This document shows positions 19,834 through 46,654 of a stretch of DNA of 46,654 bases, piece after piece. The translations under genes were made by a program, and so were the position numbers. Location: contig CAJWTP010000007.1 in NCBI GenBank assembly GCA_913047325.1, forward strand, positions 1-46,654, read 5' to 3'. Source of the DNA: an uncultured Gammaproteobacteria bacterium. GTDB taxonomy: Bacteria; Pseudomonadota; Gammaproteobacteria; PS1; Pseudothioglobaceae. Numbering within the stretch: the stretch's first letter is position 1; each line of letters opens with the position of its first letter. Below the pieces are notes generated by a model. It was not told the DNA's origin. It was given only the letters and a program-made list of their open reading frames with translations, and made no database searches.

Positions 19834-19878
19834 TCATTTTATATACCATATGCAGCCCACTTAAACTAGGAGAGAGAT

Positions 19879-23542: not shown

Positions 23543-24555
23543 TGGCAACTAAAAAAATAACCTCATTGGAAGTGGCAAAATTGGCTGGTGTAAGCCAGTC
23601 TGCAGTTTCTCGTGTGTTCACACCTGGCGCCTCTGTTTCAAAAAAAACAAATGAGAAAGTTCGTCGTGCTGCTTCAAAGCTCGGCTATCGTCCAAACATC
23701 TTGGCTCGATCATTAATTACAGGAAAGTCAAGAATCATTGGTCTAGTGGTTTCACATCTAGATAATTATTTTTATCCAGAAGCGTTAGAGCTCCTCTCTA
23801 ATGCTTTGCAAAAAAAAGGCTACCATGTGTTGGTTTTTATGGCCTCAAAAACATCGGGAAATATTGATGATGTTGTGGATGAAATTCTTGATTATCAGGT
23901 TGATAGTATTATTCTAGCTTCTGTTGCAATGTCATCAAATCTTGCCACTAGATGTACTTCTGCGGGGGTTCCTGTAATTTTATTTAACCGAACCCAAGAC
24001 GACAATAGGCTTTCAAGTGTCACTTCAGACAATTTTGCTGGCGGGAAAAAGGCTGCGAGATTCTTGATTGCTGGGGGCCACAAACGCATAGCTTATATAG
24101 CTGGATGGGAAGGAGCTTCGACTCAGCGTGATAGAGAAGCTGGTTTTGTCAAAGAGCTGAAAGAGCACGGAATATCTCTTTATGCTTATGAGGTTGGTAA
24201 TTTTGTTCGAGATGAAGCTCGACAGGCTGCACGGAAAATGTTTACCGCTGATGAAATACCCGATGCGGTTTTTGTAGCAAGTGATGATATGTCATTTGCA
24301 GTAATGGATGTAATTCGTTTTGAGCTTGGGTTAAAGATACCAGAACAAGTTTCTGTTGTTGGTTATGACGATGTTCCTGTTGCATCATGGCCTGCCTATG
24401 ATTTAACAACTGTTAGACAACCAGCAAATCGTATGGTGGCAGAAACTATTTCAATTATTCTTGAGTGTATTGAAGATAAGGAAACTAAGCCACGTCGAAT
24501 ACAAATAGATGGGCCGCTTGTAATACGCGGCTCGGCAAGAATTTCAAATAAATGA
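23542..24555 (+). CDS. LacI-family transcriptional repressor of the cluster
   Basis: The N-terminal DNA-binding domain is clear: ITSLEVAKLAGVSQSAVSRVF, then the hinge region KVRRAASKLGYRPNILARSL, followed by a periplasmic-binding-protein-like ligand domain. I take ATG 23542, which shares its A with the stop of the SDR gene (TAATG), giving 337 residues. Five palindromes with a central CG (TTGCATACGAATGCAA type) occur at this cluster's promoters and are its likely binding sites. As the repressor gene lies inside the operon they control, it would be autoregulated. The inducer is unknown. Confidence 0.9.
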   Translation: MATKKITSLEVAKLAGVSQSAVSRVFTPGASVSKKTNEKVRRAASKLGYRPNILARSLITGKSRIIGLVVSHLDNYFYPEALELLSNALQKKGYHVLVFMASKTSGNIDDVVDEILDYQVDSIILASVAMSSNLATRCTSAGVPVILFNRTQDDNRLSSVTSDNFAGGKKAARFLIAGGHKRIAYIAGWEGASTQRDREAGFVKELKEHGISLYAYEVGNFVRDEARQAARKMFTADEIPDAVFVASDDMSFAVMDVIRFELGLKIPEQVSVVGYDDVPVASWPAYDLTTVRQPANRMVAETISIILECIEDKETKPRRIQIDGPLVIRGSARISNK

Positions 24556-29134: not shown

Positions 29135-30157
29135 CTATTTGCTAATTTCATAAAGTATATCACGACCCAATTGGTGAGCAAGATGAAGCGTATCAACCAT
29201 ACACCAATTTTCAATAATTTTTCCATCTTTGCATCGCCACCAGTCACAATCCCTCATATAAATACGTTTATTGGTTGTATTAATGCCCATGAATGGCTTA
29301 ATATGAATGCCAGTAATTTGAGGCCATCCACTGAGGAAGGCATAATCGCCATCACCGGCTTTGCATTGTGAGCCAACGCCAGTAATGCCTTCACGTGTCC
29401 CATCACCCCAGCCTTCGAAGGTCTGTTCAAAGGGTACCTGAAAAGCTTCGAAAGCATCCTTAGTGAAATAAGAGCCGAAACCGCCGGGTCCGTACCAGAT
29501 CATGTTGTCATCCCAGTATGGGCGCCACGCACAATCAACGGATGTGAGCTCCATAAGCATTGCCTCTACTAAGTCTGCGGTAGCACGTGATTGTGAAGGA
29601 ACGCTGTGTGATAGGACAATGCCATCATGTGTTGCTGGACCGGGCATAACGCCCTCATATCCGCCACTAGAACTAAGTGGCCAAAGTTCCAACTCTATAA
29701 GAAGCTCAGCAATACCAAGAAAGATCTGTGATTGTATAATTTCCCCATCCTGCATTCTATGAAACTCACCATAGCGGATATGCTCTAGTCTTTTACTGGG
29801 TGGAATTCCTAGCCACGGTTTATCAAAATGACCTAGGAAGTATCCAGTTGATGTAACCCATTCACCACCTTGATATTCTCCACCAATTAAAATATTGTCT
29901 CGCCTCTGAAAGCCTTCAAATGAGTGAATCATGGGGCTCAAGATATCGGAAAAGTATCCTTTAGCACCTGTGGTTATATTTACAGGATGAAATGCATCTA
30001 TCTGTGTTTTGGTACTAAAGATATCATTTACCGCATTTTCAATAGTATTAATTTCCCCTGTTTCGAATGCTTGCAGGTATTTGGCATATATATTCTTGTT
30101 TTCGACGGTTTTATCTGTAGCAATACCCATTGGGGGACGAGGCGCTCGTGCTGTCAT
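29135..30157 (-). CDS. Tandem SnoaL-like protein (ester cyclase family)
   Basis: The 340-residue protein contains two SnoaL-like halves: residues about 20-170 with LQAFETGEINTIENAVNDIF and a second from about 200 with WRPYWDDNMIWYGPGGFGSYF. The C-terminal segment KPFMGINTTNKRIYMRDCDWWRCKDGKIIENWCMVDTL parallels those of 33706 and 20932. AAGGAG lies 10 bases before the ATG at 30157. It is transcribed away from the solute-binding-protein gene and shares the intergenic operator pair at 30242-30311. Function unknown. Confidence 0.75.
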   Translation of the reverse strand: MTARAPRPPMGIATDKTVENKNIYAKYLQAFETGEINTIENAVNDIFSTKTQIDAFHPVNITTGAKGYFSDILSPMIHSFEGFQRRDNILIGGEYQGGEWVTSTGYFLGHFDKPWLGIPPSKRLEHIRYGEFHRMQDGEIIQSQIFLGIAELLIELELWPLSSSGGYEGVMPGPATHDGIVLSHSVPSQSRATADLVEAMLMELTSVDCAWRPYWDDNMIWYGPGGFGSYFTKDAFEAFQVPFEQTFEGWGDGTREGITGVGSQCKAGDGDYAFLSGWPQITGIHIKPFMGINTTNKRIYMRDCDWWRCKDGKIIENWCMVDTLHLAHQLGRDILYEISK

Positions 30158-30241: not shown

Positions 30242-30257
30242 TTGCATACGAATGCAT
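30242..30257. promoter_or_regulatory. LacI-type operator, distal copy at the transporter promoter
   Basis: TTGCATACGAATGCAT matches the palindrome at 19764 except for the last base. It lies upstream of the -35 of the transporter promoter and between the divergent genes at 30157 and 30452, so it could also affect the minus-strand SnoaL-like gene. Confidence 0.8.
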
Positions 30258-30264
30258 AAAGTTC

Positions 30265-30292
30265 TTGCAAAGGTGTTTTGCTGTGTTATAAT
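30265..30292 (+). promoter_or_regulatory. Promoter of the ABC transporter operon
   Basis: TTGCAA (30265-30270) and TATAAT (30287-30292) are 16 bases apart. The distance to both flanking operators is identical to that at the 19787 promoter. Confidence 0.75.
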
Positions 30293-30295
30293 AAT

Positions 30296-30311
30296 TTGCA
30301 ATCGTATGCAA
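30296..30311. promoter_or_regulatory. LacI-type operator, proximal copy at the transporter promoter
   Basis: TTGCAATCGTATGCAA starts 3 bases after the -10 hexamer, as at 19818. Its center is 54 bp from the distal copy. Confidence 0.8.
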
Positions 30312-32801: not shown

Positions 32802-33683
32802 ATGTCTTCCACCCAAATAAAAAAACCATTAGGGCTTCAAATATTGATATACGGCTTTGTTCTGCTCTGGTTTATTTTGGCGGCCTTTCCATTTTTGTGG
32901 ACATTTTGGGGCTCGTTCAAGGTAGAGCTTGATTTTTTCTCAAAGGCAGACTGGACAAATGCAATTTCAGGTGTGAGGACACAGGTTGTATATGGTAAAG
33001 CTTTTACGGGTGCAGGCTACGACGGAGCATGGATACAGGAAGAGTTTTGGAGAGCTTTTCGTAATACAAGTATAGTGTGCTTTTTTACGGTACTTACTTC
33101 ATTAACCATTGCGACTCTCGGTGGTTATGCTTTATCACGTTCTGGTTTTCGTTATGCTTTTTGGCTATTAATTATTGCACTTATTTTCCGCGCATTGCCG
33201 CCAATTACATTAGTTTCAGGTTATTTATTGCCATTTTTTCAGTGGAACATTTGGGGAATCCTACCAACTACAATCATTGTTTTAGTTGCAATAAATCAAC
33301 CATTTACCTTGTGGATGCTGCACTCATTTTTTCAAAAAATTCCAAAAGAATTGGATGAAAGCGCTAAAGTGGATGGATGTACTCAATTCCAAGCCTTTAG
33401 GAATGTCATTATTCCCGTAATGTGGCCAGGTGTTGTCACTGCTGGATTGTTTTCATTTCTATTGGCATATAATGACTTTGCTGTCACTGCTATGCTACTT
33501 TCCCAAGATAACCAAACTATGGTTCCTAAAATTGCAAGCTTCATGGGGACTACTCAAACCGAAGGTAATGTGATGTTTGCGGTTGCGGCAGTTGTCTCTG
33601 CTGTAGTGCCGTTATTTATTTTAGTTATGTTTTTTCAGAGACAACTTGTTAGTGGTTTAACGGCTGGTGCCGTTAAGGGATAA
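32802..33683 (+). CDS. Sugar-type ABC transporter permease (MalG/UgpE-like)
   Basis: A 293-residue protein with six membrane segments. The EAA motif reads DESAKVDGCTQFQAFRNVII. The start at 32802 (MSSTQIKKPLG) is chosen because GGGATAAT precedes it and the previous gene stops at 32797; a longer frame would overlap that gene. Like its partner it has an extended first periplasmic loop (about residues 45-85). It works with the ATPase at 19879, about 10 kb away. Confidence 0.88.
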   Translation: MSSTQIKKPLGLQILIYGFVLLWFILAAFPFLWTFWGSFKVELDFFSKADWTNAISGVRTQVVYGKAFTGAGYDGAWIQEEFWRAFRNTSIVCFFTVLTSLTIATLGGYALSRSGFRYAFWLLIIALIFRALPPITLVSGYLLPFFQWNIWGILPTTIIVLVAINQPFTLWMLHSFFQKIPKELDESAKVDGCTQFQAFRNVIIPVMWPGVVTAGLFSFLLAYNDFAVTAMLLSQDNQTMVPKIASFMGTTQTEGNVMFAVAAVVSAVVPLFILVMFFQRQLVSGLTAGAVKG

Positions 33684-33705
33684 TTTTGACGAGGTAAACC
33701 AATAA

Positions 33706-34731
33706 ATGAGCAGCTATCAAGTTGAGAAACAGTTAGTTCTAAATTATTATAAAGAGCTAGATTCAGCAGCAGAAAATAACCTTTCTAAGGTTATGGAACG
33801 ATACCTAGATGATTATTATATCTGGCGTGGTTTTCATCCCTTCAATGAGCAATCTAACGCTAAGGCAGTGTCAGAACTGTTTTGGCAGCCACTACGTCAT
33901 GCTTTTCGTCATATGCAGCGTCGCATGGATATTTTCATGGCGGGTCGGAATGAAATAGATGGCTTTGAGTCTGTATGGGTCACCTCAATGGGCCACTTGG
34001 TTGGCTTGTTTGATAATGAGTGGTTAGGTATTGCTCCGACAGGCAAGATGATTTTTTTGCGTTATTGTGAATTTAACAAAATCGAGCATGGGAAGATAAC
34101 TGAAACGGCAATGTTTTTTGATATTCCTCATCTTATGATGCAGGCGGGTTTACAGCCCTTCCCATCTCAAACTGCAGCACATTTGGTGCAGCCAGGACCA
34201 ATGACGCGTGATGGCTTGATGTTTGAAGGACAAGACCCTAAAGAAGGTGAGAAAACTCTAGCTGCAATAGATTTCATGGTCAATGATATGAGGGATTGGA
34301 AAGATGCAAAAAAGCTACCTCTAGTTGAAGAACTTAGGAGGAGCTGGAATGAAGATATGATCTGGTGGGGTCCTGCAGGTATCGGAGCAACATATACTAT
34401 AGAGCGTTATGCTGAGCAGCACTCGGGGCCGTTTCGCGCTGCTTTTACGGATCGTATATTTAACGGCCATCTTTGTAGATTTGCTGAAGGAAAGTTCGGT
34501 GGCTTTTTTGGCTGGCCAAACCTGACTTTGACACCTACAGGTGAGTTTATGGGAATACCTACAAAAGCCAAACCTATTGACATGCGCGTTATAGACATGT
34601 ATCGCCGAGAAGGAGATAAGTTGACTGAGAATTGGATATTTATCGATTTTTTGTATTTCTGGAATCAACAAGGGGTCGATATTTTAGCTCGTGCTACAGG
34701 GATCGGCATGGAGGATGAGCCTCCCAACTAA
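33706..34731 (+). CDS. Tandem SnoaL-like protein (ester cyclase family)
   Basis: A 341-residue protein of two SnoaL-like halves. The first starts QLVLNYYKELDSAAENNLSK and includes WVTSMGHLVGLFDNEWLGI; the second starts near residue 210 with WNEDMIWWGPAGIGATY and includes FRAAFTDRIFNG, PTGEFMGIP and GDKLTENWIFIDFLYFWNQQ. It is closest in layout to the protein at 29135. It follows the second permease by 22 bases with a GAGG ribosome site, so it is in the transporter operon. A scrap resembling its C-terminal codons is found at 41518. Function unknown. Confidence 0.76.
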   Translation: MSSYQVEKQLVLNYYKELDSAAENNLSKVMERYLDDYYIWRGFHPFNEQSNAKAVSELFWQPLRHAFRHMQRRMDIFMAGRNEIDGFESVWVTSMGHLVGLFDNEWLGIAPTGKMIFLRYCEFNKIEHGKITETAMFFDIPHLMMQAGLQPFPSQTAAHLVQPGPMTRDGLMFEGQDPKEGEKTLAAIDFMVNDMRDWKDAKKLPLVEELRRSWNEDMIWWGPAGIGATYTIERYAEQHSGPFRAAFTDRIFNGHLCRFAEGKFGGFFGWPNLTLTPTGEFMGIPTKAKPIDMRVIDMYRREGDKLTENWIFIDFLYFWNQQGVDILARATGIGMEDEPPN

Positions 34732-34751
34732 TAATGCTTTAGAATTATTTT

Positions 34752-34767
34752 TTGCATACGAATGCAA
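34752..34767. promoter_or_regulatory. LacI-type operator in front of the ATPase relic
   Basis: TTGCATACGAATGCAA is identical to the site at 19764, and the bases before it (TTAGAATTATTT) match as well. The second operator expected 54 bp downstream is degenerate (only TTGCAAT remains at 34803). The site belongs to a copied promoter region. Confidence 0.75.
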
Positions 34768-34770
34768 AAC

Positions 34771-34812
34771 TTGATTTACATCAAGACAAATATTGTTTAA
34801 TCTTGCAATAAT
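34771..34812 (+). promoter_or_regulatory. FNR-type promoter upstream of the corrinoid protein gene
   Basis: TTGATTTACATCAA (34771-34784) matches the FNR/ANR consensus TTGAT-N4-ATCAA perfectly. AATAAT (34807-34812) begins 29.5 bp from the center of the box, the spacing of a class II promoter with the activator at -41.5. The same geometry recurs at 36897 and 41426. Confidence 0.7.
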
Positions 34813-34878
34813 AACTCCTAATGAAAGCTTGGCTTGAGAATCTAATGCCGCGTTTTGCTGTCTTACTCTGAGAGATAT

Positions 34879-34965
34879 TTAGCTGAAATTCAATTAAAAA
34901 ATCTGACCAAGCACTGGGGTAGTTTTGGTGGCTCAGAGAGCTTTAATTTGACTATTGCTGACTAA
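34879..34965 (+). pseudogene. Truncated 5' relic of a second ABC transporter ATPase gene
   Basis: The first 84 bases match the start of the ATPase gene at 19879 closely ([15 protein letters not shown], then a diverged GGSESFNLTIAD). The initiating TTG has become TTA, and similarity stops at 34962, where an in-frame TAA follows at once. The upstream AGAGA ribosome-site region and the operator at 34752 are also copied. It cannot encode a working ATPase and marks the left edge of the 35-41.5 kb island. Confidence 0.9.
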
Positions 34966-35001
34966 GCCACAAAGTTGTGTTTATGAATAGGAATTTGATA
35001 A

Positions 35002-35631
35002 ATGGATTATTTAGATAACATTTATGAAGCCATACTAGATGGCGATATGGGAATCGTTCCCACAAATGTCCAATCCGCCCTTGATGCTGGCATTTCAGTC
35101 TCTGATATTCTTGTCGAAGGCATGATTGCCGCAATGGAAGAAGTTGGACGCCTATTTCAAGAAGGCGAATACTTTGTCCCTGAGATGTTGTTAGCAGCGC
35201 ATTCAATGAAGGCCGGGATATCTGTTTTGCAGCCGCATCTAGTCAACTCTGGTGTCGAGCCGATTGGCAAAGTTGTCCTCGGAAGTGTTGAGGGTGACAT
35301 GCACGATATTGGAAAAAATCTTGTGGCGATGATGCTGGAAGGAGTTGGATTTCAGATAGTCGATTTAGGCACAGATGTTAGTGCCGCACAGTTTGTAGAA
35401 GCTGTTAAAGAAGGCGCTGATATTCTTGGGCTATCCGCTTTGTTGACTACAACACTGCCTAGTATGGAAAGTACGATTCGGGCAATTGAAGCAGCGGGAT
35501 TACGAGAGGACGTTAAGATTATTGTTGGTGGTGCGCCCGTAACGGCAGATTATGCTCATCAAATTGGTGCAGATGGTTATGCAAAAGATGCGAGCCAGGC
35601 AGTGAAGGTAGCAAAATCTTTTATTAATTGA
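35002..35631 (+). CDS. Corrinoid (B12-binding) methyl-carrier protein, MtbC/MttC type
   Basis: The 209-residue protein has a helical cap domain with GEYFVPEMLLAA (residues 56-67), then a B12-binding domain with the ligand motif GDMHDIGKNL (D99, H101, G104), the LSALLTT segment and VGGAPVT. Such proteins carry methyl groups between a substrate-specific methyltransferase and an acceptor methyltransferase. The UroD-family gene follows after 15 bases. The mttB-like gene at 14726 has no other corrinoid partner in the window. Expression is predicted from the FNR-type promoter at 34771, with a leader of about 180 bases spanning the ATPase relic. Confidence 0.92.
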   Translation: MDYLDNIYEAILDGDMGIVPTNVQSALDAGISVSDILVEGMIAAMEEVGRLFQEGEYFVPEMLLAAHSMKAGISVLQPHLVNSGVEPIGKVVLGSVEGDMHDIGKNLVAMMLEGVGFQIVDLGTDVSAAQFVEAVKEGADILGLSALLTTTLPSMESTIRAIEAAGLREDVKIIVGGAPVTADYAHQIGADGYAKDASQAVKVAKSFIN

Positions 35632-35646
35632 ATAGGGAACGTAGCC

Positions 35647-36849
35647 ATGACGATGACACCACGAGAGAATTTTTTCACGGCAATAGGTCACCAGCAGCCA
35701 GAGCGGGTTCTGGTTGATATGGGTAAACATATTGGCTCTATTCATAAGAAAGCCTACGTAAAACTGCAGCACTACCTCAACGATGTGCCCATGGAAAATG
35801 CGGATAAAATACTGGACCGTATGGCACAGACAGTGGTTCCTGACGAGGCACTACTGCAGCGTTTTGGCATCGATTTCCGATGGCTGGTCCCCAACTGGGT
35901 ACAGGTCAAGGAACGCACTGATGTGGATGGTTATATTGACATGTGGGGCGTGCCTTATCGTGCAACAGCGGACCAGGATCATTACGCAATTGATGTACTC
36001 TGTGATGCGCCCTTAAAAACAGCTACCCTGAAGAATCTGGATGATTTTAACTGGCCCGACCCGTATGACCCAGATCAATTCAAGGGGTTGCGTGAACAGG
36101 CCAAGAACCTGTATGAAAACACCGACTACGTTATCGGGGCAGATGCCATCAAAGCCGGTCCCCTGATGACAGCCCTGCAAATGCGAGGCTATGAACAGTT
36201 CTTTATGGATCTGATTGCTGATACTGAATTTGCTGATGCACTGCTGGATAAGATCACCTGGACCCTGAAAGCAATGTGGACCCGCTATATGGAAGAGGTA
36301 GGGCCATATGTTCAGCTTGCTTATGTTACGGATGATTTGGGTTCCCAGACCTCAATGTTGATATCGCCAAAAGTATTTCGCAACCGTCTCAAGCCGAAGA
36401 TGAAAGAGCTGCATGACCATATCAAGGGTCTGGCAGACGTGAAGTTGATGATGCATACAGATGGAGCAGTGTTACCGGTCATTGAAGATATTATCGAAAT
36501 GAATGTGGACATCATCAACCCGGTACAGACCTCGGTTCAGGGTATGGACAATACCCAAGCCCTCAAGCAACAGTTTGGTGATCGACTTGCCTTTCACGGG
36601 GCGATAGATGTACAGCAGTTAATGCCCAATGCCAGCCTTGATCAGCTGCGCTGGGAGGTAGCAAAGAGGATTCATGACCTTGGTCGTAATGGGGGCTATA
36701 TCATTGCACCCTGTCACAATATTGGGTATGACATTTCACCCCAAAATATGGTGACTTTTTTTGACCTGGTAAAACAGTTCGGCGCCTATCCACTGGCGCT
36801 TGATGAAGTTCTTGCCAGCAACCAATCCTACTTTACCAATAACAGCTGA
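35647..36849 (+). CDS. UroD-family corrinoid methyltransferase (MtbA/MtaA superfamily)
   Basis: The 400-residue protein belongs to the uroporphyrinogen decarboxylase superfamily branch used by corrinoid methyltransferases, not to true HemE. The first part of the metal site reads MMHTDGAV (H270, D272), where MtaA-type enzymes have H-x-C; a later cysteine is in APCHNIG (C356). It may move methyl groups from the corrinoid protein to an acceptor, or from an unknown methylated donor to it. ATG 35647 and 35653 are both possible. Base composition is richer in G+C than the preceding host-like genes. Confidence 0.83.
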   Translation: MTMTPRENFFTAIGHQQPERVLVDMGKHIGSIHKKAYVKLQHYLNDVPMENADKILDRMAQTVVPDEALLQRFGIDFRWLVPNWVQVKERTDVDGYIDMWGVPYRATADQDHYAIDVLCDAPLKTATLKNLDDFNWPDPYDPDQFKGLREQAKNLYENTDYVIGADAIKAGPLMTALQMRGYEQFFMDLIADTEFADALLDKITWTLKAMWTRYMEEVGPYVQLAYVTDDLGSQTSMLISPKVFRNRLKPKMKELHDHIKGLADVKLMMHTDGAVLPVIEDIIEMNVDIINPVQTSVQGMDNTQALKQQFGDRLAFHGAIDVQQLMPNASLDQLRWEVAKRIHDLGRNGGYIIAPCHNIGYDISPQNMVTFFDLVKQFGAYPLALDEVLASNQSYFTNNS

Positions 36850-36896
36850 GCAAAGGTTGTGATAGCAGTCAATGTTTAAATGGAGATATCAATGGA

Positions 36897-36938
36897 TTGA
36901 TACAGGTCAATTATTTGTATACCACATACAAATATAAT
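36897..36938 (+). promoter_or_regulatory. FNR-type promoter upstream of the LVIVD gene
   Basis: TTGATACAGGTCAA (36897-36910) matches the FNR consensus at 9 of 10 defined bases. A perfect TATAAT (36933-36938) begins 29.5 bp from its center, which puts the box at -41.5. It drives the short leader frame and the LVIVD gene. Confidence 0.72.
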
Positions 36939-36995
36939 TATTTTTATAACAATATTGAAAAAAATATAATAACTAATAGGAAAGAGGAGAATTTA

Positions 36996-37064
36996 ATGTT
37001 TATTAAAAAAAATATAACTTTAATAGCAATTTTGCTTATTTCAACTAATGCAGGAGAACAATGA
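36996..37064 (+). CDS. 22-residue signal-peptide-only leader ORF
   Basis: From ATG 36996, with GAGGAG just upstream, the frame reads MFIKKNITLIAILLISTNA then GEQ and a TGA. It is a textbook export signal with a cleavage-like site and no mature protein. Its TGA overlaps the ATG of the LVIVD gene, and its end supplies the AGGAG ribosome site for that gene. It is strongly A+T-rich while the next gene is not, so it looks like the severed 5' end of another exported protein's gene. It could still act through translational coupling. Confidence 0.6.
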   Translation: MFIKKNITLIAILLISTNAGEQ

Positions 37065-38314
37065 TGTCCAGTCCTAGTCTTCTCACTCCGGATTTTTCCC
37101 GTAACATGCACATACTCGGTCACTCAGACCAGGGTGGTCGAGCCGACGGTATCCAGGTCATGGTTTCAGGAGGATATGCCTACGTCGGGCATGTATTCAA
37201 TAACGGCTTTTCGGTAATCGATGTACGAGACCCGAAGAAGCCGACATTCGTGCGCCATATACCCCAACCAGCAGGCACCTGGAGCCAGCATTTACAAACC
37301 CATGGCGATATTCTTATCGTCAACAACATGCGTGATATGCTGCAGGCCGAGAACATCGATGCGGGGGAATATTACCAGGGCTCAATTGGCGACAAGATTT
37401 CTCTTGACACTCCCGAGCAGGGTTATTCTGCCGGTATGCGGGTTTACGATATTTCTGATCGTGCCAATCCACGCGAAATTGCTTTCATGGAAGTACCGGG
37501 GCTGGGCGTTCACCGTGTCTGGTACGACGGTGGCAACTGGGCCTATATCTCAGCCCTGCCGCCCGGATTCAGTGACGATATTTTCATGATTGTCGACTTT
37601 AAGAACCCCGAAAATCCCGAGGTGGTAAGCAAGTTGTGGCTTCCTGGAATGAACAGCGCAGCCGGAGAAACTCCAGCCTGGGATGCAAAATACCGCTACG
37701 CGCTGCACCATGCCATCATCAAGGGCGATCTTGCCTGCGGTGCCTGGCGCGACGGTGGCGTCACTACGATGGATGTCAGTGACCGTTACAACCCGGTTAT
37801 CCTGGCACATGATAACCCCTGCCCTCCTTTTTCCGGCGGTACCCATAACACGCTGCCCATCCCGGATCGCAACCTGCTATTCGTGGTTGAGGAATCGGTA
37901 TTTGATAATTGCGAAGATGGTATCAAGCACAACTGGGTATACGACATCAGCAATCCGGCAAATCCTGTAACCATCGCCACCACCCCGATTCCGGACGAGA
38001 TGGATTATCAGGCCAAGGGCGGACAATTCGGCCCGCACAATGTACATGAAAATCGTAGTGAGGGATTCCAGAGTTCCGAGCTGATGTTTGTCAGTTATCA
38101 GAACGCAGGGATCAGAGTCTACGACATTTCCAACCCCTACCGCCCTGAAGAAGTTGCTGCGCTGGTACCACCTGCGCCTCAAAAGCTGATGGATTATCGC
38201 CCCGCCCGCCCGTTGGTTGTTGATACTACCGATGTTTACGTCGATAAACAGGGGCTGATTTACACCACCGACATGAATGCTGGACTTTACATCATAGAAA
38301 TGGAGAATCTCTAA
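37064..38314 (+). CDS. LVIVD-repeat beta-propeller-like protein
   Basis: The protein of about 417 residues is made of LVIVD-type repeats, visible as GYAYVGHVFNNGFSVIDVRD, AGMRVYDISDRANPREIAFM, WAYISALPPG, GVTTMDVSDRYNPV and GIRVYDISNPYRPEEVAAL. Such repeats form propeller-like surface or periplasmic domains of unknown role. I prefer the ATG at 37064 to that at 37061 because AGGAG is 7 bases upstream of it. It has no signal peptide of its own; the leader just upstream is out of frame. The stop overlaps the next start (TAATG). Composition is G+C-richer than the flanks. Confidence 0.78.
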   Translation: MSSPSLLTPDFSRNMHILGHSDQGGRADGIQVMVSGGYAYVGHVFNNGFSVIDVRDPKKPTFVRHIPQPAGTWSQHLQTHGDILIVNNMRDMLQAENIDAGEYYQGSIGDKISLDTPEQGYSAGMRVYDISDRANPREIAFMEVPGLGVHRVWYDGGNWAYISALPPGFSDDIFMIVDFKNPENPEVVSKLWLPGMNSAAGETPAWDAKYRYALHHAIIKGDLACGAWRDGGVTTMDVSDRYNPVILAHDNPCPPFSGGTHNTLPIPDRNLLFVVEESVFDNCEDGIKHNWVYDISNPANPVTIATTPIPDEMDYQAKGGQFGPHNVHENRSEGFQSSELMFVSYQNAGIRVYDISNPYRPEEVAALVPPAPQKLMDYRPARPLVVDTTDVYVDKQGLIYTTDMNAGLYIIEMENL

Positions 38315-39300
38315 TGAGTCGGGTTCTGATTGTGGGGAAAATCCATCCAAAGGGTCTCGCCATTCTTGAGGCTGAGGACGGGCTGGAGATCGAGATGATC
38401 ACTGACCCGGATGCAGAGCTATCGAAGGAAAAACTGGCGACGACGGATGCCTTGCTGATTCGCTATGGAAAAATCAGTGAAGCCGACGCTGAACAAATGC
38501 CAAATCTGCGTATCGTATCGCGCCATGGCGTGGGTTGCGACAACCTGCCGGTAGCAGCTCTAGGTGCCCGCGGCGTGCCGGTGACCATTGTCGGACCGGT
38601 CACCGCGGGGTCGGTCGCCGAGCAGGTGATGGCGATGTTGATGGCACTGATCAAAAAAATCGCCCTTTACGATGCTGCGGTACGCAAAGGCGACTGGGGC
38701 ATTCGTGACTCACTACAGGTCGGAGAATTGGCAGGCCGAACCTTGATGATTCTGGGCTTTGGGCGTATCGGGCGCGAGGTTGCACGCCGGGCATTGGCTT
38801 TTGACATGAAGGTTGCAATCCATGATCCTTTCGTCAGTGCCGATGAAATCCAGGCCGCGGGATATCAGGCAGTCGAGGATTGGCGAGCAACACTGCCCGA
38901 GATGGATGTGATAAGCCTGCATCTGCCTATGACAGCGGAAACCAGGGGCTTGATTGGTGCTGGGGAAATCGCTGCGATGAAATCAACCGCCATCCTGATC
39001 AACGCTGCTCGCGGCGGACTGGTAGATGAAGAGGCGCTCTATACCGCCCTGACTGGACCTATGTCCCGCGGTGGCGCCGGGATGGACTGTTTCGACAGCG
39101 AGCCACCGACCCCGGATCAACCGCTATTGAGCTTGCCTAATGTAGTGCTCAGCCCTCATTCTGCCTCGCTAAGCGAAGAGGCCGCACAACGTATGGGAAT
39201 TGTGGCAGCACAAAACATCTTAGACGGTTTGCATGGCAAACTTAAAGCGGAACTGGTTTTCAACCTGAAGGCATTGCAAGAGGCCGGACATGAGTTATGA
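38314..39300 (+). CDS. D-isomer-specific 2-hydroxyacid dehydrogenase
   Basis: A 328-residue NAD-dependent dehydrogenase of the D-2-hydroxyacid family. The cofactor motif GFGRIGREV is near residue 149. The catalytic arginine is in INAARGGLVDE, the acidic residue in DCFDSEPP and the histidine in LSPHSASLS. Substrates could be D-3-phosphoglycerate, a hydroxypyruvate or another 2-hydroxyacid. It overlaps the preceding and following genes by 1 and 11 bases, and is part of the G+C-rich three-gene block. Confidence 0.87.
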   Translation: MSRVLIVGKIHPKGLAILEAEDGLEIEMITDPDAELSKEKLATTDALLIRYGKISEADAEQMPNLRIVSRHGVGCDNLPVAALGARGVPVTIVGPVTAGSVAEQVMAMLMALIKKIALYDAAVRKGDWGIRDSLQVGELAGRTLMILGFGRIGREVARRALAFDMKVAIHDPFVSADEIQAAGYQAVEDWRATLPEMDVISLHLPMTAETRGLIGAGEIAAMKSTAILINAARGGLVDEEALYTALTGPMSRGGAGMDCFDSEPPTPDQPLLSLPNVVLSPHSASLSEEAAQRMGIVAAQNILDGLHGKLKAELVFNLKALQEAGHEL

Positions 39301-40012
39301 GATTCCGACCGCGAAGTATATCGACTTTCTTGACAAAACCATCGAGATCCACTGGGATTATCATGCCCTGCTGATGTTTGGCATCTGGTTTGTGCTGATA
39401 CCAGCTGCGCTATTATTCATCCGTTTCGGCAAACCTAAACCAACCACCTACGGCATCCCGCTCGGTATCAGCCGGTTCGACCGCAGGCTTTTGTGGTGGA
39501 CGCTGCATTACAGCTTACTTTACCTTGCTATTGCTCTGTCGATTGCCGGGGCTTTGATTGCAATCTGGTTAAGCGGGGGTTTTAGCGGTACGTTACACGC
39601 TTGGTTTGGAAGCGGCACCATCCTGTTGGGTACGCTACAAATTATATCTGCCTGGTTTCGCGGTAGCCATGGCGGAAAGCACGGTGCAGAATCCGATCCG
39701 CAAGACCGTTCAACTTGGAGTGGGGATCATTTTGACATGACCGCAAAACGGCGCTGGTTTGAGGTTTATCATAAAACTGCGGGGTATATCGTAATCGTAA
39801 TGGCTGTTGGCACGGCCGCCTCAGGACTATGGCAATTCTGGATGCCGGGGATTGCTATCGCCTTTATCCTAGTGATGATTGTGGTATTGATTCTGGCCAC
39901 GGCGCTACAGGCTTATGGATTAAATGTTGATACTTACCAGTCAGTATACGGCAACCATCCGGACCATCCTTTCAACAAGAGACGCAGTTCTAAAGGACAA
40001 AGTCCTGACTGA
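39290..40012 (+). CDS. Cytochrome b561-type membrane protein
   Basis: A 240-residue protein with about five membrane segments. Histidines in WDYHALLMFGIW, WWTLHYSLLYL, TLHAWFGSG and YHKTAGYIVIVM are placed as in b561-type two-heme electron carriers. Such proteins pass electrons across the membrane, often with a partner domain outside. With the LVIVD protein and the dehydrogenase it may form an oxidoreductase path, which is inference from the operon only. The C-terminal tail is hydrophilic and charged. Confidence 0.75.
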   Translation: MSYEIPTAKYIDFLDKTIEIHWDYHALLMFGIWFVLIPAALLFIRFGKPKPTTYGIPLGISRFDRRLLWWTLHYSLLYLAIALSIAGALIAIWLSGGFSGTLHAWFGSGTILLGTLQIISAWFRGSHGGKHGAESDPQDRSTWSGDHFDMTAKRRWFEVYHKTAGYIVIVMAVGTAASGLWQFWMPGIAIAFILVMIVVLILATALQAYGLNVDTYQSVYGNHPDHPFNKRRSSKGQSPD

Positions 40013-40081
40013 AGTCATCAGAGTGCAGATTTAATATACGCAGAAATCAATGAAGATCACCCCGAGCTTAGCCACATCGCT

Positions 40082-40843
40082 TTATTTATCCATTACTGCT
40101 TTCAACTCTGTTGCCAGTGCAGATTTCAACAAATTCGCATCGCTATTAGGCACCACAAAATCGAAACCTTGCGTAGCACGTTGGGCAGCGACCTTACCAG
40201 AGGGACAAAAGATACCAGCGTGTTTTCCAGCAGCTTTGGCCCTCTTCAGACAATAATCAATAGAATCACGCACCTCGGCATCTATTGGATCTAAAACTGA
40301 ACCTTTACCCAAACTCAATCCCAAATCCGCAGGTCCGATGAATATACCATCGAGTCCGTCTACGGCACAGATTTCATCGATGGCAGCTAGTCCTTCGTTT
40401 GTTTCGATCATGGCTAAACAAACAACCGTTTTATTAGCGTATTGAGCATAATCAGAACCGCCATAGAGCAGACCACGGGCCGGCCCAAAGCTACGTTGGC
40501 CTATGGGTGGGTATGAAGCGGCATTAACCAGTACTCGTGCGTCATCTGCCGAATTCACCATCGGGCAGATAACCCCATAACTGCCAGCATCGAGTGCTTT
40601 CATGATGACACTAGGTTCAGCGTTAGGAACCCGCACAAAAGGTGTAGCAGGTGTAGTCGAAATGGCCTGTAACATAACTATCATGTCTGAGATATCAGTC
40701 ATTCCATGCTGCAGGTCGATGGTCACACAATCAACTCCACTCATGCCGACAATTTCGGCGCTGTAACTATTGCCTATTGACAACCAGCCAGAAATGGCGG
40801 CTCGTCCTTCTGCCCAGCATGTAAGCACATTATTTGATCGCAT
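40082..40843 (-). CDS. HpcH/HpaI-family class II aldolase
   Basis: The 253-residue protein belongs to the HpcH/HpaI aldolase/citrate lyase family. Typical segments are VTIDLQHGMTD, PFVRVPN, AMIETNEGLAAIDEI with the metal-binding glutamate, and IFIGPADLGLSLG with the metal-binding aspartate. Such enzymes split 4-hydroxy-2-oxo acids to pyruvate and an aldehyde. It lies 41 bases after the VOC gene on the minus strand and converges on the cytochrome gene. The ribosome site is weak. The specific substrate is unknown. Confidence 0.88.
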   Translation of the reverse strand: MRSNNVLTCWAEGRAAISGWLSIGNSYSAEIVGMSGVDCVTIDLQHGMTDISDMIVMLQAISTTPATPFVRVPNAEPSVIMKALDAGSYGVICPMVNSADDARVLVNAASYPPIGQRSFGPARGLLYGGSDYAQYANKTVVCLAMIETNEGLAAIDEICAVDGLDGIFIGPADLGLSLGKGSVLDPIDAEVRDSIDYCLKRAKAAGKHAGIFCPSGKVAAQRATQGFDFVVPNSDANLLKSALATELKAVMDK

Positions 40844-40884
40844 TTTAGCTTCGAAAAGTTAAAGAATTTGTCAAGCTTCGACTA

Positions 40885-41355
40885 TCATACAGGACTGGTC
40901 GGGCTGCCTTCACGCCATTCTGGGACGCCACTGTTTAAGATTAAATCACGAATTGTTTCTAACTTGAATGAATTCAAATCTGCCTCTTCTTCTGGGGCAA
41001 ACTGGATTTCAATATGGTTACCATCCGGATCGAAGATATGGATCTGGCGAATTTCAACATCAGGCACCACAGCAACATGGTAAGGAACTTCATTATCGCG
41101 AAGGTGCTCCAAAAGTTCGGCCATCCTAGATGCACTGAAGGCAACGTGTTCTATCTGGGTATCCTGCACCTTGGGAGGGCTTTCTAGCTCTACCAGGTGT
41201 ACTACCGGAGTTTCACCACAGTACAGCCAGGTTCCGGTTGAAGTGAATGGCGGACGCAGTCCAGCCGTTAATCCCAGTATCCGCGAATAAAAATCCTTTA
41301 AAACTTGGTGATTAACAGTCAGCAGGGTGACATGATTCAGGCCTTCGAGCGGCAT
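40885..41355 (-). CDS. VOC-family protein (glyoxalase/dioxygenase fold)
   Basis: A 156-residue vicinal-oxygen-chelate protein. The metal-site positions are in GLNHVTLLT, IEHVAF and GNHIEIQF. Start 41355 (MPLEGLNHV) is preferred to 41370 because AGGAG lies between the two ATGs at the right distance. It precedes the aldolase gene and is likely its operon partner. A metal-dependent isomerase, lyase or dioxygenase role is possible. Confidence 0.8.
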   Translation of the reverse strand: MPLEGLNHVTLLTVNHQVLKDFYSRILGLTAGLRPPFTSTGTWLYCGETPVVHLVELESPPKVQDTQIEHVAFSASRMAELLEHLRDNEVPYHVAVVPDVEIRQIHIFDPDGNHIEIQFAPEEEADLNSFKLETIRDLILNSGVPEWREGSPTSPV

Positions 41356-41397
41356 GGTGGTACTCCTCATATAGGTTATTGAGTTTCATTACGAAGT

Positions 41398-41439
41398 ATT
41401 ATTGCAATATCAAATAATATGTATCTTGATGTAGGTCAA
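41398..41439 (-). promoter_or_regulatory. FNR-type promoter of the VOC-aldolase genes
   Basis: TTGATGTAGGTCAA (41426-41439) is an FNR-type box with 9 of 10 matches. On the minus strand AATAAT (41403-41398) begins 29.5 bp from its center. On the plus strand TAAAAT (41462-41467) sits at the same distance, so the box could also serve the direction of the gene at 41685. Confidence 0.6.
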
Positions 41440-41454
41440 TTATTGCAAAATATG

Positions 41455-41500
41455 TCCATCTTAAAATAATATATCCATCTTAAATACATATAGCCATATA
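41455..41500. repeat. Short 19-bp tandem repeat
   Basis: Two 19-base units (41455-41473 and 41474-41492) both start TCCATCTTAAA and end ATATA, followed by a partial third copy starting GCCATATA. It leads straight into the gene debris at 41493. Confidence 0.6.
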
Positions 41501-41561
41501 CCGCAACCCGCAGGCACCTGGAATCAAAAAAAGAATCGATATTTTGGCGCGAATTAAATAA
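41493..41561 (+). pseudogene. Chimeric gene debris: LVIVD fragment joined to a SnoaL-like C-terminal fragment
   Basis: Bases 41493-41522 match 37254-37283 of the LVIVD gene at 28 of 30 positions and read HIPQPAGTW; both differences are synonymous. From 41518 the sequence runs TGGAATCAA, a run of seven A (41526-41532), then codes DILAR before a TAA at 41559-41561. WNQ and DILAR match the C-terminal end of the SnoaL-like protein at 33706. The two parts join at a shared tryptophan codon region and are shifted in frame by one base. It is the right edge of the island. Confidence 0.7.
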
Positions 41562-41618
41562 AATGTCAAAAAATTAAGTTTAATAGAAAATATTTCAAAA
41601 AAAATTATTAATATTTTT

Positions 41619-41651
41619 CACTTGTTTTACCAAATAGTTTGGATTAACATT
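41619..41651 (+). promoter_or_regulatory. Promoter element shared with the mttB-like gene
   Basis: This 33-base element matches 14637-14669 at 28 positions. TTGTTT (41622-41627) and TAACAT (41645-41650) are 17 bases apart. The start codon of the dehydrogenase follows 34 bases later. Confidence 0.55.
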
Positions 41652-41684
41652 TTAATTTTCATTTTATTTATTTAGGAATCCATT

Positions 41685-44099
41685 ATGAAAGACCATGCAA
41701 GAGTCGTTGTTATTGGGGGTGGTGTTGTTGGTTGTTCTATACTATTTCACCTTGCAAAGATGGGTTGGAAAGATGTCGTTTTACTTGAAAGGGATGAATT
41801 AACTTCTGGCTCTAGTTGGCATGCAGCTGGCTCATTTCATACAGTTAGTTCTGACCCTAATGTTTCCAAGCTTCAAGACTACACAATCAATTTATATAAA
41901 GAAATTGAAGAGACTTCAGGTCATTCAATTAGTCTGCACAAAACAGGAGGTTACTATCTAGCTTCAAATCAAAGTTGGCATGACTATCTTAAGCGTGAGC
42001 GCTCAAATGCAAGATCATTAGGGCTAGATCAAGAATTCGTGACATTAGATGAAGTCGTAGAAAAGCACCCATTAATCGACCCTAAACATTATGTTGCAGC
42101 ACTTTGGGATCCATCTGATGGCGACCTTGATCCATCTGGTGTTGTTTATGCTTATGCAAAATCAGCACGTGTTCATGGTGCAGAGTTCTTCACTCATACA
42201 CCAGTCATAGAGACCAATCAGAGGCCTGATGGTTCTTGGGATATTGTTACTGAAAAAGGCAATATTCATGCAGAGCATATTGTAAATGCTGGAGGTCTTT
42301 GGGCTCGTGAGCTTGGCCGAATGTCTGGAATTCATTTGCCTGTAGCGCCAATGGAACATCACTATTTAATTACAGATGAAATTGATCAAATTGCTAACCT
42401 TCCAGAAGGTCAGCGCTTGCCAAGCTGTATTGACTTTGAAGCAAATATTTATTTACGTCAAGAAAGCACTGGCATGTTATTAGGAACCTATGAACCCCAA
42501 TCAACTCCATGGTCGCTGGATGGCACGCCACAAAATTTTGGCCATGATTTATTGGAGCCAAATTTGGATCGCATTGCTGACAGACTAGAATTGGCATTTG
42601 AGCGAATTCCTTCACTGGGTAGTGCTGGTATCAAAAATATTATTAATGGCCCATTTGTCTTTTCACCTGATGGTAACCCGATGGTTGGACCTGTTCCGGG
42701 TGTTAAAAACTACTGGACAGCTGTCGGTGTGATGGCTGGCTTTTGTCAAGCTGGTGGAGTTGGAAAGACTCTAGCTGAATGGATGATTGAAGGCGAACCT
42801 TCAGTGGATATTTGGGCAATGGACATTGCACGCTTTGGTGACTTTGCAACGCCTCAATGGGGTGTAATCAAGTCATCTGAAAATTACGAGCGTCGCTTTG
42901 TGATGACCTTTCCTAACGAAACTTTGCCAAAAGGCAGACGCCAAAAAACAACATCGATATATGACCGTTTGACACAGAAAGGAGCAGTATGGCAAGATAC
43001 CTTCGGATTAGAAAATGCGCTTTGGTTTGCCGATTCCCCTGAGGATGCTTATGAAGACCCGACTTTTCATAGATCAAGGTCACATGACTATGTTGCACAG
43101 GAAGTAAAGGCTGTTCGTGAAAACCTTGGAGCAAGTGAAATTGCTAATTTTGCTAATCATAAATTTACTGGCAGTGGGGCTCGGGCTTTCTTGGATCGTA
43201 TTCTTGCAGGTCATATGCCTGAGCGCGGACGAGTCAACCTTTCGCCAATGCTTCTTGAGAGTGGCAAGTTGAATGGCGATCTAACAGTTGCATGTATTGA
43301 TAATGAGACTTACTATTTGTTCGGTTCAAGTGTCGCACAAAATATGCATCTTCGTTGGTTTGAAAAGCATCTCGAGGGCGTTGATGATGTTGAGTACCAA
43401 AATATGACGGACGATTTTCATGGTATTGCAATTTCTGGGCCGAATTCTAGAGAATTATTGTCAAGACTTACTCGAGAAGATGTTAGCTCTGATGCCTTCA
43501 AGTTCCGTGATATTAGAGACACATTTATAGGAGGTGTCCCAGCCTTATGTGTAAGGATCTCCTTTACAGGCGAGCTTGGTTATGAAATATATGTAGCTCC
43601 TCAATATCAGTTGAAGCTATTTGAAGAGATTCAAGAGGCCGGAAAAGATTTAGATGTGAAGTGGTTTGGTGGAAGAGCATTAATGTCAATGAGACTAGAA
43701 AAGAGTTGGGGCGCTTGGACGATGGATTTTAGACCTGACTTTACTTTAATGGAGTCTGGTCTTGATTTTTTCGTGAACTGGAATAAAGACTTTATTGGGA
43801 AAGATGCTGCCTTGATAGAAAAAAAGAATGGCCCAAGTAAACATTTATCAGTCATTGAAATTGAAACAGAAACTGATGTTTGTGGGGACGAAGCAGTGAT
43901 GCATAATGGCAAATGCATCTCCTATATAACTTCAGGTGGTTATGGTCATTCAGTTGAAAAATCTCTTGCAATGACATACTTGCCAGTTGAATTGATTGAC
44001 GAGGATACTGAGCTTGAGGTGGAGATATTAGGTAAGTTTCATCAAGCGAGTGTTGTTATGGACCCGTTATACGATCCAAACGGTTCAAAAATGCGCTAA
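41685..44099 (+). CDS. Dimethylglycine/sarcosine dehydrogenase family protein (FAD- and folate-binding)
   Basis: An 804-residue two-part enzyme that oxidatively demethylates N-methyl amino acids and transfers the one-carbon unit to tetrahydrofolate. The FAD site VVVIGGGVVGCSILFHL (8-24) is followed by SGSSWHAAGS with H46, the residue that binds FAD covalently in this family. The linker domain covers about 380-430. The C-terminal half (about 430-804) is a GcvT-like folate domain with ISGPNSRELLSRLT and FTGELGYEIYV. It could use dimethylglycine or sarcosine. Together with the mttB-like gene and carnitine genes it completes a betaine route. It has a promoter element in common with the mttB-like gene. 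Confidence 0.87.
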   Translation: MKDHARVVVIGGGVVGCSILFHLAKMGWKDVVLLERDELTSGSSWHAAGSFHTVSSDPNVSKLQDYTINLYKEIEETSGHSISLHKTGGYYLASNQSWHDYLKRERSNARSLGLDQEFVTLDEVVEKHPLIDPKHYVAALWDPSDGDLDPSGVVYAYAKSARVHGAEFFTHTPVIETNQRPDGSWDIVTEKGNIHAEHIVNAGGLWARELGRMSGIHLPVAPMEHHYLITDEIDQIANLPEGQRLPSCIDFEANIYLRQESTGMLLGTYEPQSTPWSLDGTPQNFGHDLLEPNLDRIADRLELAFERIPSLGSAGIKNIINGPFVFSPDGNPMVGPVPGVKNYWTAVGVMAGFCQAGGVGKTLAEWMIEGEPSVDIWAMDIARFGDFATPQWGVIKSSENYERRFVMTFPNETLPKGRRQKTTSIYDRLTQKGAVWQDTFGLENALWFADSPEDAYEDPTFHRSRSHDYVAQEVKAVRENLGASEIANFANHKFTGSGARAFLDRILAGHMPERGRVNLSPMLLESGKLNGDLTVACIDNETYYLFGSSVAQNMHLRWFEKHLEGVDDVEYQNMTDDFHGIAISGPNSRELLSRLTREDVSSDAFKFRDIRDTFIGGVPALCVRISFTGELGYEIYVAPQYQLKLFEEIQEAGKDLDVKWFGGRALMSMRLEKSWGAWTMDFRPDFTLMESGLDFFVNWNKDFIGKDAALIEKKNGPSKHLSVIEIETETDVCGDEAVMHNGKCISYITSGGYGHSVEKSLAMTYLPVELIDEDTELEVEILGKFHQASVVMDPLYDPNGSKMR

Positions 44100-44171
44100 T
44101 CCGGTTTAAACTGAAGCGTTACAACTGAATAACCTATCCTGCATAAACATTAATTAGAGAGAGACAAGGGT

Positions 44172-45488
44172 ATGAGCTTTACGAAAAACAAAAGATACCA
44201 GCCAATAATAGGCGCCCAGATAGAGGGCACTGAAGATATTTATAGTCTAAACAGGCATACGTTGGGCCCTGGAGATTTGGCTGAATCAGAATGGAAAGAG
44301 GCCGGCTTGGCTAGCCCAAACATGACCAGTATTCGAGAGTACAGGTTACAAAGGGTGCGCGATAAGCTGAAGAAATTTGATTGCGCTGGCATTCTACTCT
44401 ATGACCCTCTCAATATACGCTATGCGACAGACAGCACAAATATGTCGGCGTGGACGTCACATAACGCTGCACGCTACGCCTTAGTCATGACTGAAGGGCC
44501 TGTGATAGTTTTCGAGTTTGATGGCCATGAGTTTCTCTCGAACCATAACCCATTGATAACGGAGGTAAGGCCAGCTACAACCTATTTGTATTTCACGGCT
44601 GGTGAATTTAGTAAAAATCGAGCCAAAATCTGGGCTGCCGAGATTGCAGAAATTGTAGCCCAGTATGGTTCCGGAAATAAACGACTAGCACTAGATCATT
44701 GTGCGCCCGAAGGCGTCCAAGAACTGCAGAATCATGGTTTCGAACTGGTTAACGGTGAAGAGGTGATGGAGCTGGCAAGGTTGATTAAGTCGGATGATGA
44801 AATCGTTGCGATGAGGCGCTCTATTTACGCTTGCGAAAAATCTATAGAAATGATGCGTGGCCACTTTGAGCCCGGCATTACCGAACAAAAGTTATGGAGC
44901 CTCTTTCAGATGGAGGCTGTCTCCAGAGGCGCTGAATGGATTGAAACGCGCCTGCTTACAGCTGGCCCTAGGGCTAATCCATGGTATCAAGAGTGCTCAT
45001 CAAGAGCCATACAGAGTGGAGAATTGATGAGTTTTGACACCGATCTGGTTGGTGCATATGGCTACTGTACCGATATGTCTCGTTGCTGGTTGTGTGGTGA
45101 TGAAAAGGCAAGCCCTACGCAAAAAGATATCTATACCAAAGCCCACGAACAGGTTAGGCAAAATATTGAGAGACTGCGCCCAGGAATTACCTTTAAAGAA
45201 CTGTCATTTTCGTCCAAAGAGTATCCAAGAGATGAGTTTCGTCATTATTCAATGCTGTATCACGGCATTGGACTGTGTGACGAATACCCTGCCATCCCTT
45301 TTTCATGGGAATGGAATGAGAACAGTTTCGATGGCACAGTCAAACCGGGAATGGTTTTGTGCGTTGAAAGCTATGTTGGCCGACCTGACGGTGGTCCGGG
45401 CGTCAAACTGGAGGAGCAAGTATTAATCACCGAAACAGGTCACGAGATATTAACCAACTACCCTTTCGAATCTGATTTGTTACTTTGA
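44172..45488 (+). CDS. dddP: DMSP lyase DddP (M24-peptidase fold)
   Basis: DddP cleaves dimethylsulfoniopropionate to dimethyl sulfide and acrylate. The 438-residue protein has the family segments YDPLNIRYATDSTNM and EWIETRLLTAGPRANPWYQE. Residues matching the iron ligands described for Ruegeria DddP are all present (D289, D291, D301, H364, E399, E414), and the catalytic aspartate matches D370 in HGIGLCDEYP. Spacings between these are the same as in the described enzyme. This separates it from ordinary M24 creatinase or prolidase members. It begins after a GAGAGAGACAAGG leader and is followed by an oxidoreductase gene. Confidence 0.93.
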   Translation: MSFTKNKRYQPIIGAQIEGTEDIYSLNRHTLGPGDLAESEWKEAGLASPNMTSIREYRLQRVRDKLKKFDCAGILLYDPLNIRYATDSTNMSAWTSHNAARYALVMTEGPVIVFEFDGHEFLSNHNPLITEVRPATTYLYFTAGEFSKNRAKIWAAEIAEIVAQYGSGNKRLALDHCAPEGVQELQNHGFELVNGEEVMELARLIKSDDEIVAMRRSIYACEKSIEMMRGHFEPGITEQKLWSLFQMEAVSRGAEWIETRLLTAGPRANPWYQECSSRAIQSGELMSFDTDLVGAYGYCTDMSRCWLCGDEKASPTQKDIYTKAHEQVRQNIERLRPGITFKELSFSSKEYPRDEFRHYSMLYHGIGLCDEYPAIPFSWEWNENSFDGTVKPGMVLCVESYVGRPDGGPGVKLEEQVLITETGHEILTNYPFESDLLL

Positions 45489-45520
45489 GGTAAACTAAAT
45501 ACTCTTTTTATGGGTATGCG

Positions 45521-46618
45521 ATGATCAATATTCCAACAAAAATGAGTGCAGTCCTAACCACCGGACATGGCGGTTTTGAAGTATTAGAATTTCGTAATGA
45601 TGTTGAAGTGCCTAGTCCTAATTCAGAACAGGTACTGATCAAGGTTTTAGCTGCAGGGGTTAACAATACCGATATCAATACACGCACAGCTTGGTATTCA
45701 AAGTCAGTGACAGGCGAGACCGGCGTTGGTGGCGCTGAAGGTTTCGATGATGCAAAAAATGATGACGGTAGCTGGTCAGGAACACCACTTAGTTTCCCTA
45801 TCATCCAGGGGGCTGATTGTTGCGGCGAAATTGTTGAAGTGGGTGGCCAGATTGGCCGTAGTAGAATTGGCGAGAGAGTTTTAGTGCGAACCATGCAGCA
45901 ATATGCGGTTGACTATCGACCATTCGAGTGCTGGACTCTGGGATCAGAATGTGATGGTGCCTTTGCACAATATATGCTCGCCTATAGTGACGAGAGTTAC
46001 AAGATTGAAAGCGATTGGAGCGATGTTGAATTAGCTTCTATTCCTTGCGCTTATTCAACAGCAGAAAATCTCTTAGAGCGCTCAAACGTGAGCAAAGGTG
46101 AAACTGTATTGGTTACGGGTTCGTCTGGAGGCGTTGGTTCTGCCGCTATTCAATTAGCCAAGAGACGAGGCGCAAAGGTCATAGGTATTGCGGGTAAGGA
46201 CAAAATAGCTGGGGTTCAAAATATAGGCGCTGATATCGTGATTAAGAGGGGAGAAAGTCTAGGTAGCGTTTTGGGTAGCGAATGTGTTGACGTTGTGATT
46301 GACCTTGTGGCTGGAAGTCAGTGGAGTGAGCTGCTCGATGTTCTTAAGAAAGGCGCCAGGTACGCTACCGCTGGCGCCATTGCTGGGCCAATTGTAGAGC
46401 TGGACGTTAGAACGCTCTACCTAAAAGATTTAACTTTGATGGGGTGCACCTTCCAGGACAGTAGGGTTTTTGAAAATTTGATTGGCTATATCGAGCGAAA
46501 TGAAATTAAACCTTTGGTTGTAAAGAGCTATCATCTAAAGGATATCGTGCAAGCACAGGAGGACTTTTTGGCGAAAAAATATGTCGGCAAACTAGTTTTG
46601 GTGCCGCCTGTAGTTTGA
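45521..46618 (+). CDS. MDR-family NAD(P)-dependent oxidoreductase (zinc-less, quinone-reductase-like)
   Basis: The 365-residue medium-chain reductase starts KMSAVLTTGHGGFEVLEF and has the nucleotide site VLVTGSSGGVGSAAIQLAKRRGAKVIG near residues 195-220. The structural four-cysteine zinc loop of alcohol dehydrogenases is missing. It lies 32 bases after dddP. Acrylate, the DddP product, is detoxified by MDR enzymes such as AcuI acting on acryloyl-CoA; this protein is longer and not a clear AcuI. ATG 45521 and 45542 are both possible starts. It is a candidate partner only by position. Confidence 0.75.
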   Translation: MINIPTKMSAVLTTGHGGFEVLEFRNDVEVPSPNSEQVLIKVLAAGVNNTDINTRTAWYSKSVTGETGVGGAEGFDDAKNDDGSWSGTPLSFPIIQGADCCGEIVEVGGQIGRSRIGERVLVRTMQQYAVDYRPFECWTLGSECDGAFAQYMLAYSDESYKIESDWSDVELASIPCAYSTAENLLERSNVSKGETVLVTGSSGGVGSAAIQLAKRRGAKVIGIAGKDKIAGVQNIGADIVIKRGESLGSVLGSECVDVVIDLVAGSQWSELLDVLKKGARYATAGAIAGPIVELDVRTLYLKDLTLMGCTFQDSRVFENLIGYIERNEIKPLVVKSYHLKDIVQAQEDFLAKKYVGKLVLVPPVV

Positions 46619-46620
46619 AT

Positions 46621-46635: not shown

Positions 46636-46654
46636 CAATTAAATCTGTTTATTG

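Follow-up and report, generated by a model that had tools for sequence, protein, structure and literature searches.

The segment at 34732-34965 is, as read from the sequence, the 5' region of a gene pair that was acquired horizontally and encodes a corrinoid protein and a URO-D family methyltransferase (35002-36849), located in a stretch of 46,654 nucleotides from an uncultured member of the Pseudothioglobaceae, which at its full length is called the window here. We consider it probable (roughly 70%) that this region is a chimeric promoter and 5' leader of the acquired corrinoid/methyltransferase operon, kept by selection and composed of a LacI operator, an FNR promoter and dead ATPase codons. 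Three resident pieces are joined, i.e., the upstream LacI operator of an ABC transporter ATPase gene, an FNR-type core promoter, and the ribosome-site region of the ATPase gene with its first 28 codons, and the joined sequence continues into the ribosome site of corrinoid gene 35002 (Table 1).

Table 1. Features of the proposed chimeric promoter, its resident sources and the acquired island (positions of the window)
Feature	Position	Strand	Basis
Copied upstream operator of the ATPase gene with flank; LacI-type operator 34752-34767	34739-34772	+	94% over 35 nt to 19751-19785
Copied FNR-type core promoter and leader	34763-34864	+	80% over 105 nt to contig C33, 20035-20139, of the same genome (G000); 81% to 41447-41384
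Dead copy of ATPase ribosome-site area and first codons	34865-34966	+	87/102 identity to 19865-19966
Leader of the corrinoid gene with its AGGAA ribosome site (34989-34993)	34967-35001	+	Common to G018; sequence
Copy source: ATPase promoter and 5' end, gene 19879-20931	19751-19966	+	Operators 19764-19779, 19818-19833; -10 TATAAT 19809-19814
LacI-family regulator, resident, presumed reader of the operator	23527-24555	+	PF00356; VSQSAVSR segment identical in LacIs of related modules elsewhere
Operator pair ahead of solute-binding-protein gene (30452)	30242-30311	+	Operator search; TATAAT 30287-30292 between both
SnoaL-like gene; homology to most relatives stops at ~34687-34692, the left island junction	33706-34731	+	Alignment to relatives
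Corrinoid (B12-binding) protein	35002-35631	+	PF02310, PF02607; MtgC/MtbC-like, below curated cut-offs
URO-D family (MtaA/CmuA-like) methyltransferase	35647-36849	+	PF01208; TIGR01463 below cut-off
LVIVD protein, acquired island	37061-38314	+	
2-hydroxyacid dehydrogenase, acquired island	38314-39300	+	
Protein of unknown type, acquired island	39290-40012	+	
HpcH-type aldolase, acquired island	40082-40843	-	
Glyoxalase-like gene, acquired island	40885-41370	-	
FNR-type promoter of the glyoxalase-like gene, kin to core promoter 34771-34812	41384-41447	-	81% identity
Right island edge: 30-nt LVIVD-gene fragment (41493-41522) joined to old SnoaL-like gene 3' end	41493-41561	+	Aligns with the 3' end of the SnoaL-like gene of relatives

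Composition of the Segment

The alignment of the 3' part of the segment to the 5' end of the ATPase gene is ungapped (85% identity; BLAST E 2.7e-27), and the second-best 102-nt match to this part within the window reaches 48/102. In the ATPase frame the copy starts with TTA GCT GAA, the TTA (34879-34881) occupying the start-codon position, and continues for 28 codons to a TAA at 34963-34965; an earlier note on this DNA had reported both the TTA start and the stop, and they can be read directly in this frame. This part is classified as a truncated pseudogene of a MalK-type ABC ATPase without a remainder. A search of the leader against Rfam matched no known RNA element, and the ATPase codons are best read as passive, presumably non-functional baggage in the 5' UTR. 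The earlier note took the whole region for a copy of the ATPase promoter and 5' end, which is correct for the flank with the operator, the ribosome-site area and the 28 codons, but not for the intervening ~34774-34864, in which the -35 and -10 elements of the ATPase promoter and its second operator (19818-19833) are absent and which is a copy of an FNR-type promoter. Its proposal that a regulated promoter has remained at the relic agrees with the predicted operator and FNR-type core promoter present there.

The Acquired Island and the Search for a Second ATPase Locus

The island extends from 34692 to ~41518 with a G+C content of 0.48 vs. 0.41-0.43 on its flanks, and the ATPase copy sits just inside the left junction (~34692), placing it at the island edge as previously described. 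Of 83 genomes in the family, only that of the window (G000) and G018 contain a close URO-D homologue, and among the relatives the relic together with the B12/URO-D pair is likewise common to G018 only. This narrow distribution, the raised G+C content and a low dS between distant species characterize the downstream genes as acquired, while the piecewise homology to resident promoters characterizes the promoter in front of them as derived from resident DNA. The dS of the B12 and URO-D genes between G000 and G018 is 0.29-0.33, compared to 1.3 or saturation for neighbouring genes, which indicates that the gene pair moved between species recently, after their split. Upstream of the MttB gene at 14726 and of the DMGDH-type gene at 41685, 72 bp are 79% identical (14598-14669 vs. 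41580-41651), apparently another reused promoter.

An alternative, which we regard as unlikely, is that a complete second ATPase gene stood here, perhaps as the start of a tandem repeat of the whole 15-kb operon, and was truncated by arrival of the island and a deletion. The copy begins at the upstream flank of the ATPase promoter, keeps order and frame over 28 codons and is placed after the last gene of the operon, as the junction of a tandem duplication would be. However, no ATPase remainder was found in 34967-46654 or on other contigs, and on the window contig the only ATPase-like sequence besides 19879 is the 30-codon fragment. The right island edge (41493-41561) contains a 3' remnant of the SnoaL gene and the LVIVD-gene fragment instead of an ATPase remainder, and an unrelated tail of ~48 nt, common to G018, lies between the old SnoaL homology and the copy. 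The earlier note had postulated such a second locus and proposed to look for it in relatives between the SnoaL-like gene and the dehydrogenase at 41685; this slot contains an ATPase in none of the mapped relatives, and the complete locus is not upheld. The slot is short and empty in G002, G005, G013, G014, and G026, holds a second MttB-type gene in other mapped relatives, and carries B12-URO-D-glyoxalase-MttB in G018. In relatives the SnoaL-like gene is followed by the DMGDH-type gene either at once or after a second MttB-type gene. Throughout the SUP05/arctic96BD-19 group, the gene cluster that begins with the ATPase and ends with the SnoaL-like gene is conserved and contains one ATPase. Two further candidates were rejected, a simple tandem duplication of the operon, for which the predicted direct junction is absent, and an assembly artefact, since the same structure is present in the independent genome G018.

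The gene content around this locus varies in other respects. In most relatives the second permease and the SnoaL-like gene are separated by a gene of ~1.6 kb (L044:8500-10110) with a start resembling that of a GMC-type oxidoreductase. The window genome lacks this gene, and the two neighbours abut there (33683-33706). Moreover, the SnoaL-like gene at 29135-30157 (- strand) is reversed relative to its positional counterpart in most relatives, a SnoaL-like gene on the + strand with which it shares only 41-42% identity; it is a putative non-orthologous replacement.

The LacI-Type Operator and the Module in Other Proteobacteria

The stretch common to 34739-34772 and 19751-19785 contains the 16-bp palindromic operator TTGCATACGAATGCAA, which is identical at all 16 positions between 34752-34767 and 19764-19779. 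At a threshold of at most one mismatch, operator sites occur genome-wide only at 19764, 19818, 30242, 30296, and 34752. At the resident ATPase promoter the two operators lie 54 bp apart with TATAAT in between, whereas the relic promoter contains a single operator, at about -59.5, instead of the pairs with 54-bp spacing at the resident promoters; LacI bound to this lone operator might repress poorly. The best reading of these similarities is that the 35002 operon was enrolled in the local LacI regulon via the copied operator.

The combination of URO-D protein, LVIVD protein, hydroxyacid dehydrogenase, unknown protein and corrinoid protein recurs in Herbaspirillum, a betaproteobacterial MAG, Hyphomicrobiales, Rhodobacteraceae, and Ruegeria (loci L109-L113), and at each of these five loci in other genomes a LacI gene accompanies the module. 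These LacIs share the VSQSAVSR segment, i.e., the same recognition helix, with the LacI of the window, and the operators of their module promoters are identical to the window operator at 10-15 of 16 positions, several of them at 12-15. Genes for a RACo-type activator, pterin-binding proteins and folate enzymes are found near some of these loci, which suggests that the module may carry out methyl transfer to tetrahydrofolate. The module in the window has no LacI gene of its own, and a resident RACo gene was found elsewhere in the genome. Literature searches for this gene cluster, or for a corrinoid O-demethylase linked to a LacI regulator, returned nothing useful. That the resident LacI took over control of the module through the captured operator would be the simplest account. 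It is also conceivable, though similarly improbable as a complete second ATPase, that the operator is the native LacI operator of the acquired module and that only the downstream 102 nt were copied from the ATPase. This would fit the module's own LacI with near-identical operators elsewhere and a G018 flank that is less alike to the ATPase promoter; in the window, however, the likeness to the ATPase promoter continues for ~11/12 bases past the operator, and it precedes the ATPase copy just as at the resident gene.

The FNR-Type Core Promoter

The core promoter consists of an FNR box, TTGATTTACATCAA, at 34771-34784 (centre 34777.5) and an extended -10 element, AATAAT, at 34807-34812, with a start predicted at ~34819, which places the box 41.5 bases before this start. 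TTGAT-N4-ATCAA at about -41.5 together with a -10 element corresponds to a class II FNR promoter. Its closest kin, the promoter on C33, is divergent from the only full-length Crp/Fnr gene of the genome, whose product contains cNMP_binding and HTH_Crp_2 domains, and an FNR-type box is present at the relic, at the C33 promoter and at the promoter of the glyoxalase-like gene. The pattern TTGAY-N4-ATCAAG occurs 12 times genome-wide (both strands counted), compared to one occurrence of a control pattern. It is also located upstream of hemN-like, U32-peptidase (UbiU/V-like) and NarK-like genes, which are typical FNR targets, and the motif is therefore probably functional in this genome; at hemN the spacing to the -10 element matches that of the relic. 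The sequence of the C33 promoter (L084, end of C33) reaches the contig end, which overlaps the start of C20 (L086) by 55 bases, and very small membrane-type ORFs follow this promoter.

Conservation of the Promoter and Origin of the Copy

Between G000 and G018, operator, FNR box, spacer and -10 element are identical at 60 of 63 positions, compared to 86 of 118 for the leader, the ATPase copy and the B12 leader (Fisher p = 1.4e-4); this is a single pairwise comparison of two species, and its regions were delimited post hoc. With a synonymous divergence of ~0.26 as the reference, the promoter shows constraint (p 1e-5), and the remaining leader/ATPase sequence is compatible with neutral change (p 0.75). 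In G018, ~70 bp between CTCTGAGAG and CTCAGAGAG repeats are deleted, by which most ATPase codons are gone and the promoter is kept. The comparison favours a working promoter with a dead leader, i.e., a captured promoter that may be under selection, within the scope of this one species pair. The earlier note had held that the same short fragment, if conserved in relatives as a functional element, would speak against a lost ATPase gene; this applies by half, as G018 has the element with its promoter conserved and its ATPase codons mostly deleted. The least probable explanation is that the whole segment is dead and that the 35002 operon is transcribed by read-through from the transporter operon or from another start. 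In its favour, the frame and start of the ATPase copy are indeed dead and transcription from upstream is possible; against it, operator, FNR box and -10 element differ between the two species far less than neutral change would predict, and the FNR box shows exact class II spacing.

The copy shares derived bases only with the ATPase gene of this genome, including a T as the first base of the start codon (TTG-type, not ATG), and the ATPase copy retains older states at other sites, so that it was probably made some time ago as a partial duplication within this species' own lineage, a placement drawn from the G000 sequence, since the ATPase gene is missing from the 70%-complete assembly of G018. 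Alternatively, the shared bases could reflect gene conversion that took place later between relic and ATPase gene. After copying, promoter, leader and gene pair would have moved together between species of the genus.

Proposed Regulation

In the proposed mechanism, the resident LacI-family protein (23527) would bind 34752-34767 beside the FNR site and block FNR or the polymerase, and this block would be lifted when the inducer of the transporter operon is present. FNR at -41.5 would activate at low oxygen, which fits the oxygen-sensitive chemistry of corrinoids, and the acquired genes would thereby be co-induced with the uptake operon of a sugar-type regulon. We infer binding, start site and inducer of the 35002 promoter from the DNA sequence. 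More tentatively, and at somewhat less than even odds, pieces of two resident promoters may have been fused into a promoter with two inputs, LacI inducer AND low oxygen, which spread as a unit with the methyltransferase genes between species of the genus and replaced the LacI gene of the module because the resident LacI already recognised this operator class.

Significance and Comparison With Known Systems

The locus offers a base-by-base view of how acquired catabolic genes may join an existing regulon via fused duplicated pieces of resident promoters, in a marine lineage that is abundant and streamlined. The ATPase fossil, being neutral, both marks the event and dates it, and serves as an internal yardstick for promoter constraint. 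Furthermore, in several proteobacterial groups a conserved class of LacI operators appears to go together with a corrinoid methyltransferase module.

Promoter capture and regulatory rewiring are known processes, including horizontal regulatory transfer and promoter reuse, and in the long-term E. coli experiment the Cit+ phenotype reportedly arose by capture of a promoter at rnk-citT. As in such cases, a copy of a resident promoter is placed before another gene and would give it new regulation; here, in contrast, three resident pieces (operator, FNR core, dead 5' codons) are fused, and the fused unit seems to have passed from one species to another along with its genes. The operator is the same as at the ATPase and solute-binding-protein promoters, resembling two-operator repression by the LacI/RbsR family, but in place of two operators on either side of a sigma-70 core promoter there is one, next to an activator site. 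The box position relative to the predicted start and the extended -10 element are those of class II FNR-dependent promoters, unlike which a LacI operator abuts the FNR site upstream. Finally, the acquired genes resemble the URO-D/corrinoid (O-demethylase-like) modules of Rhodobacteraceae, Hyphomicrobiales, and Herbaspirillum in gene content, with 63-76% identity for URO-D, but differ from them in the adjacent LacI gene that those modules carry, for which the resident LacI and the operator appear to be the substitutes here.
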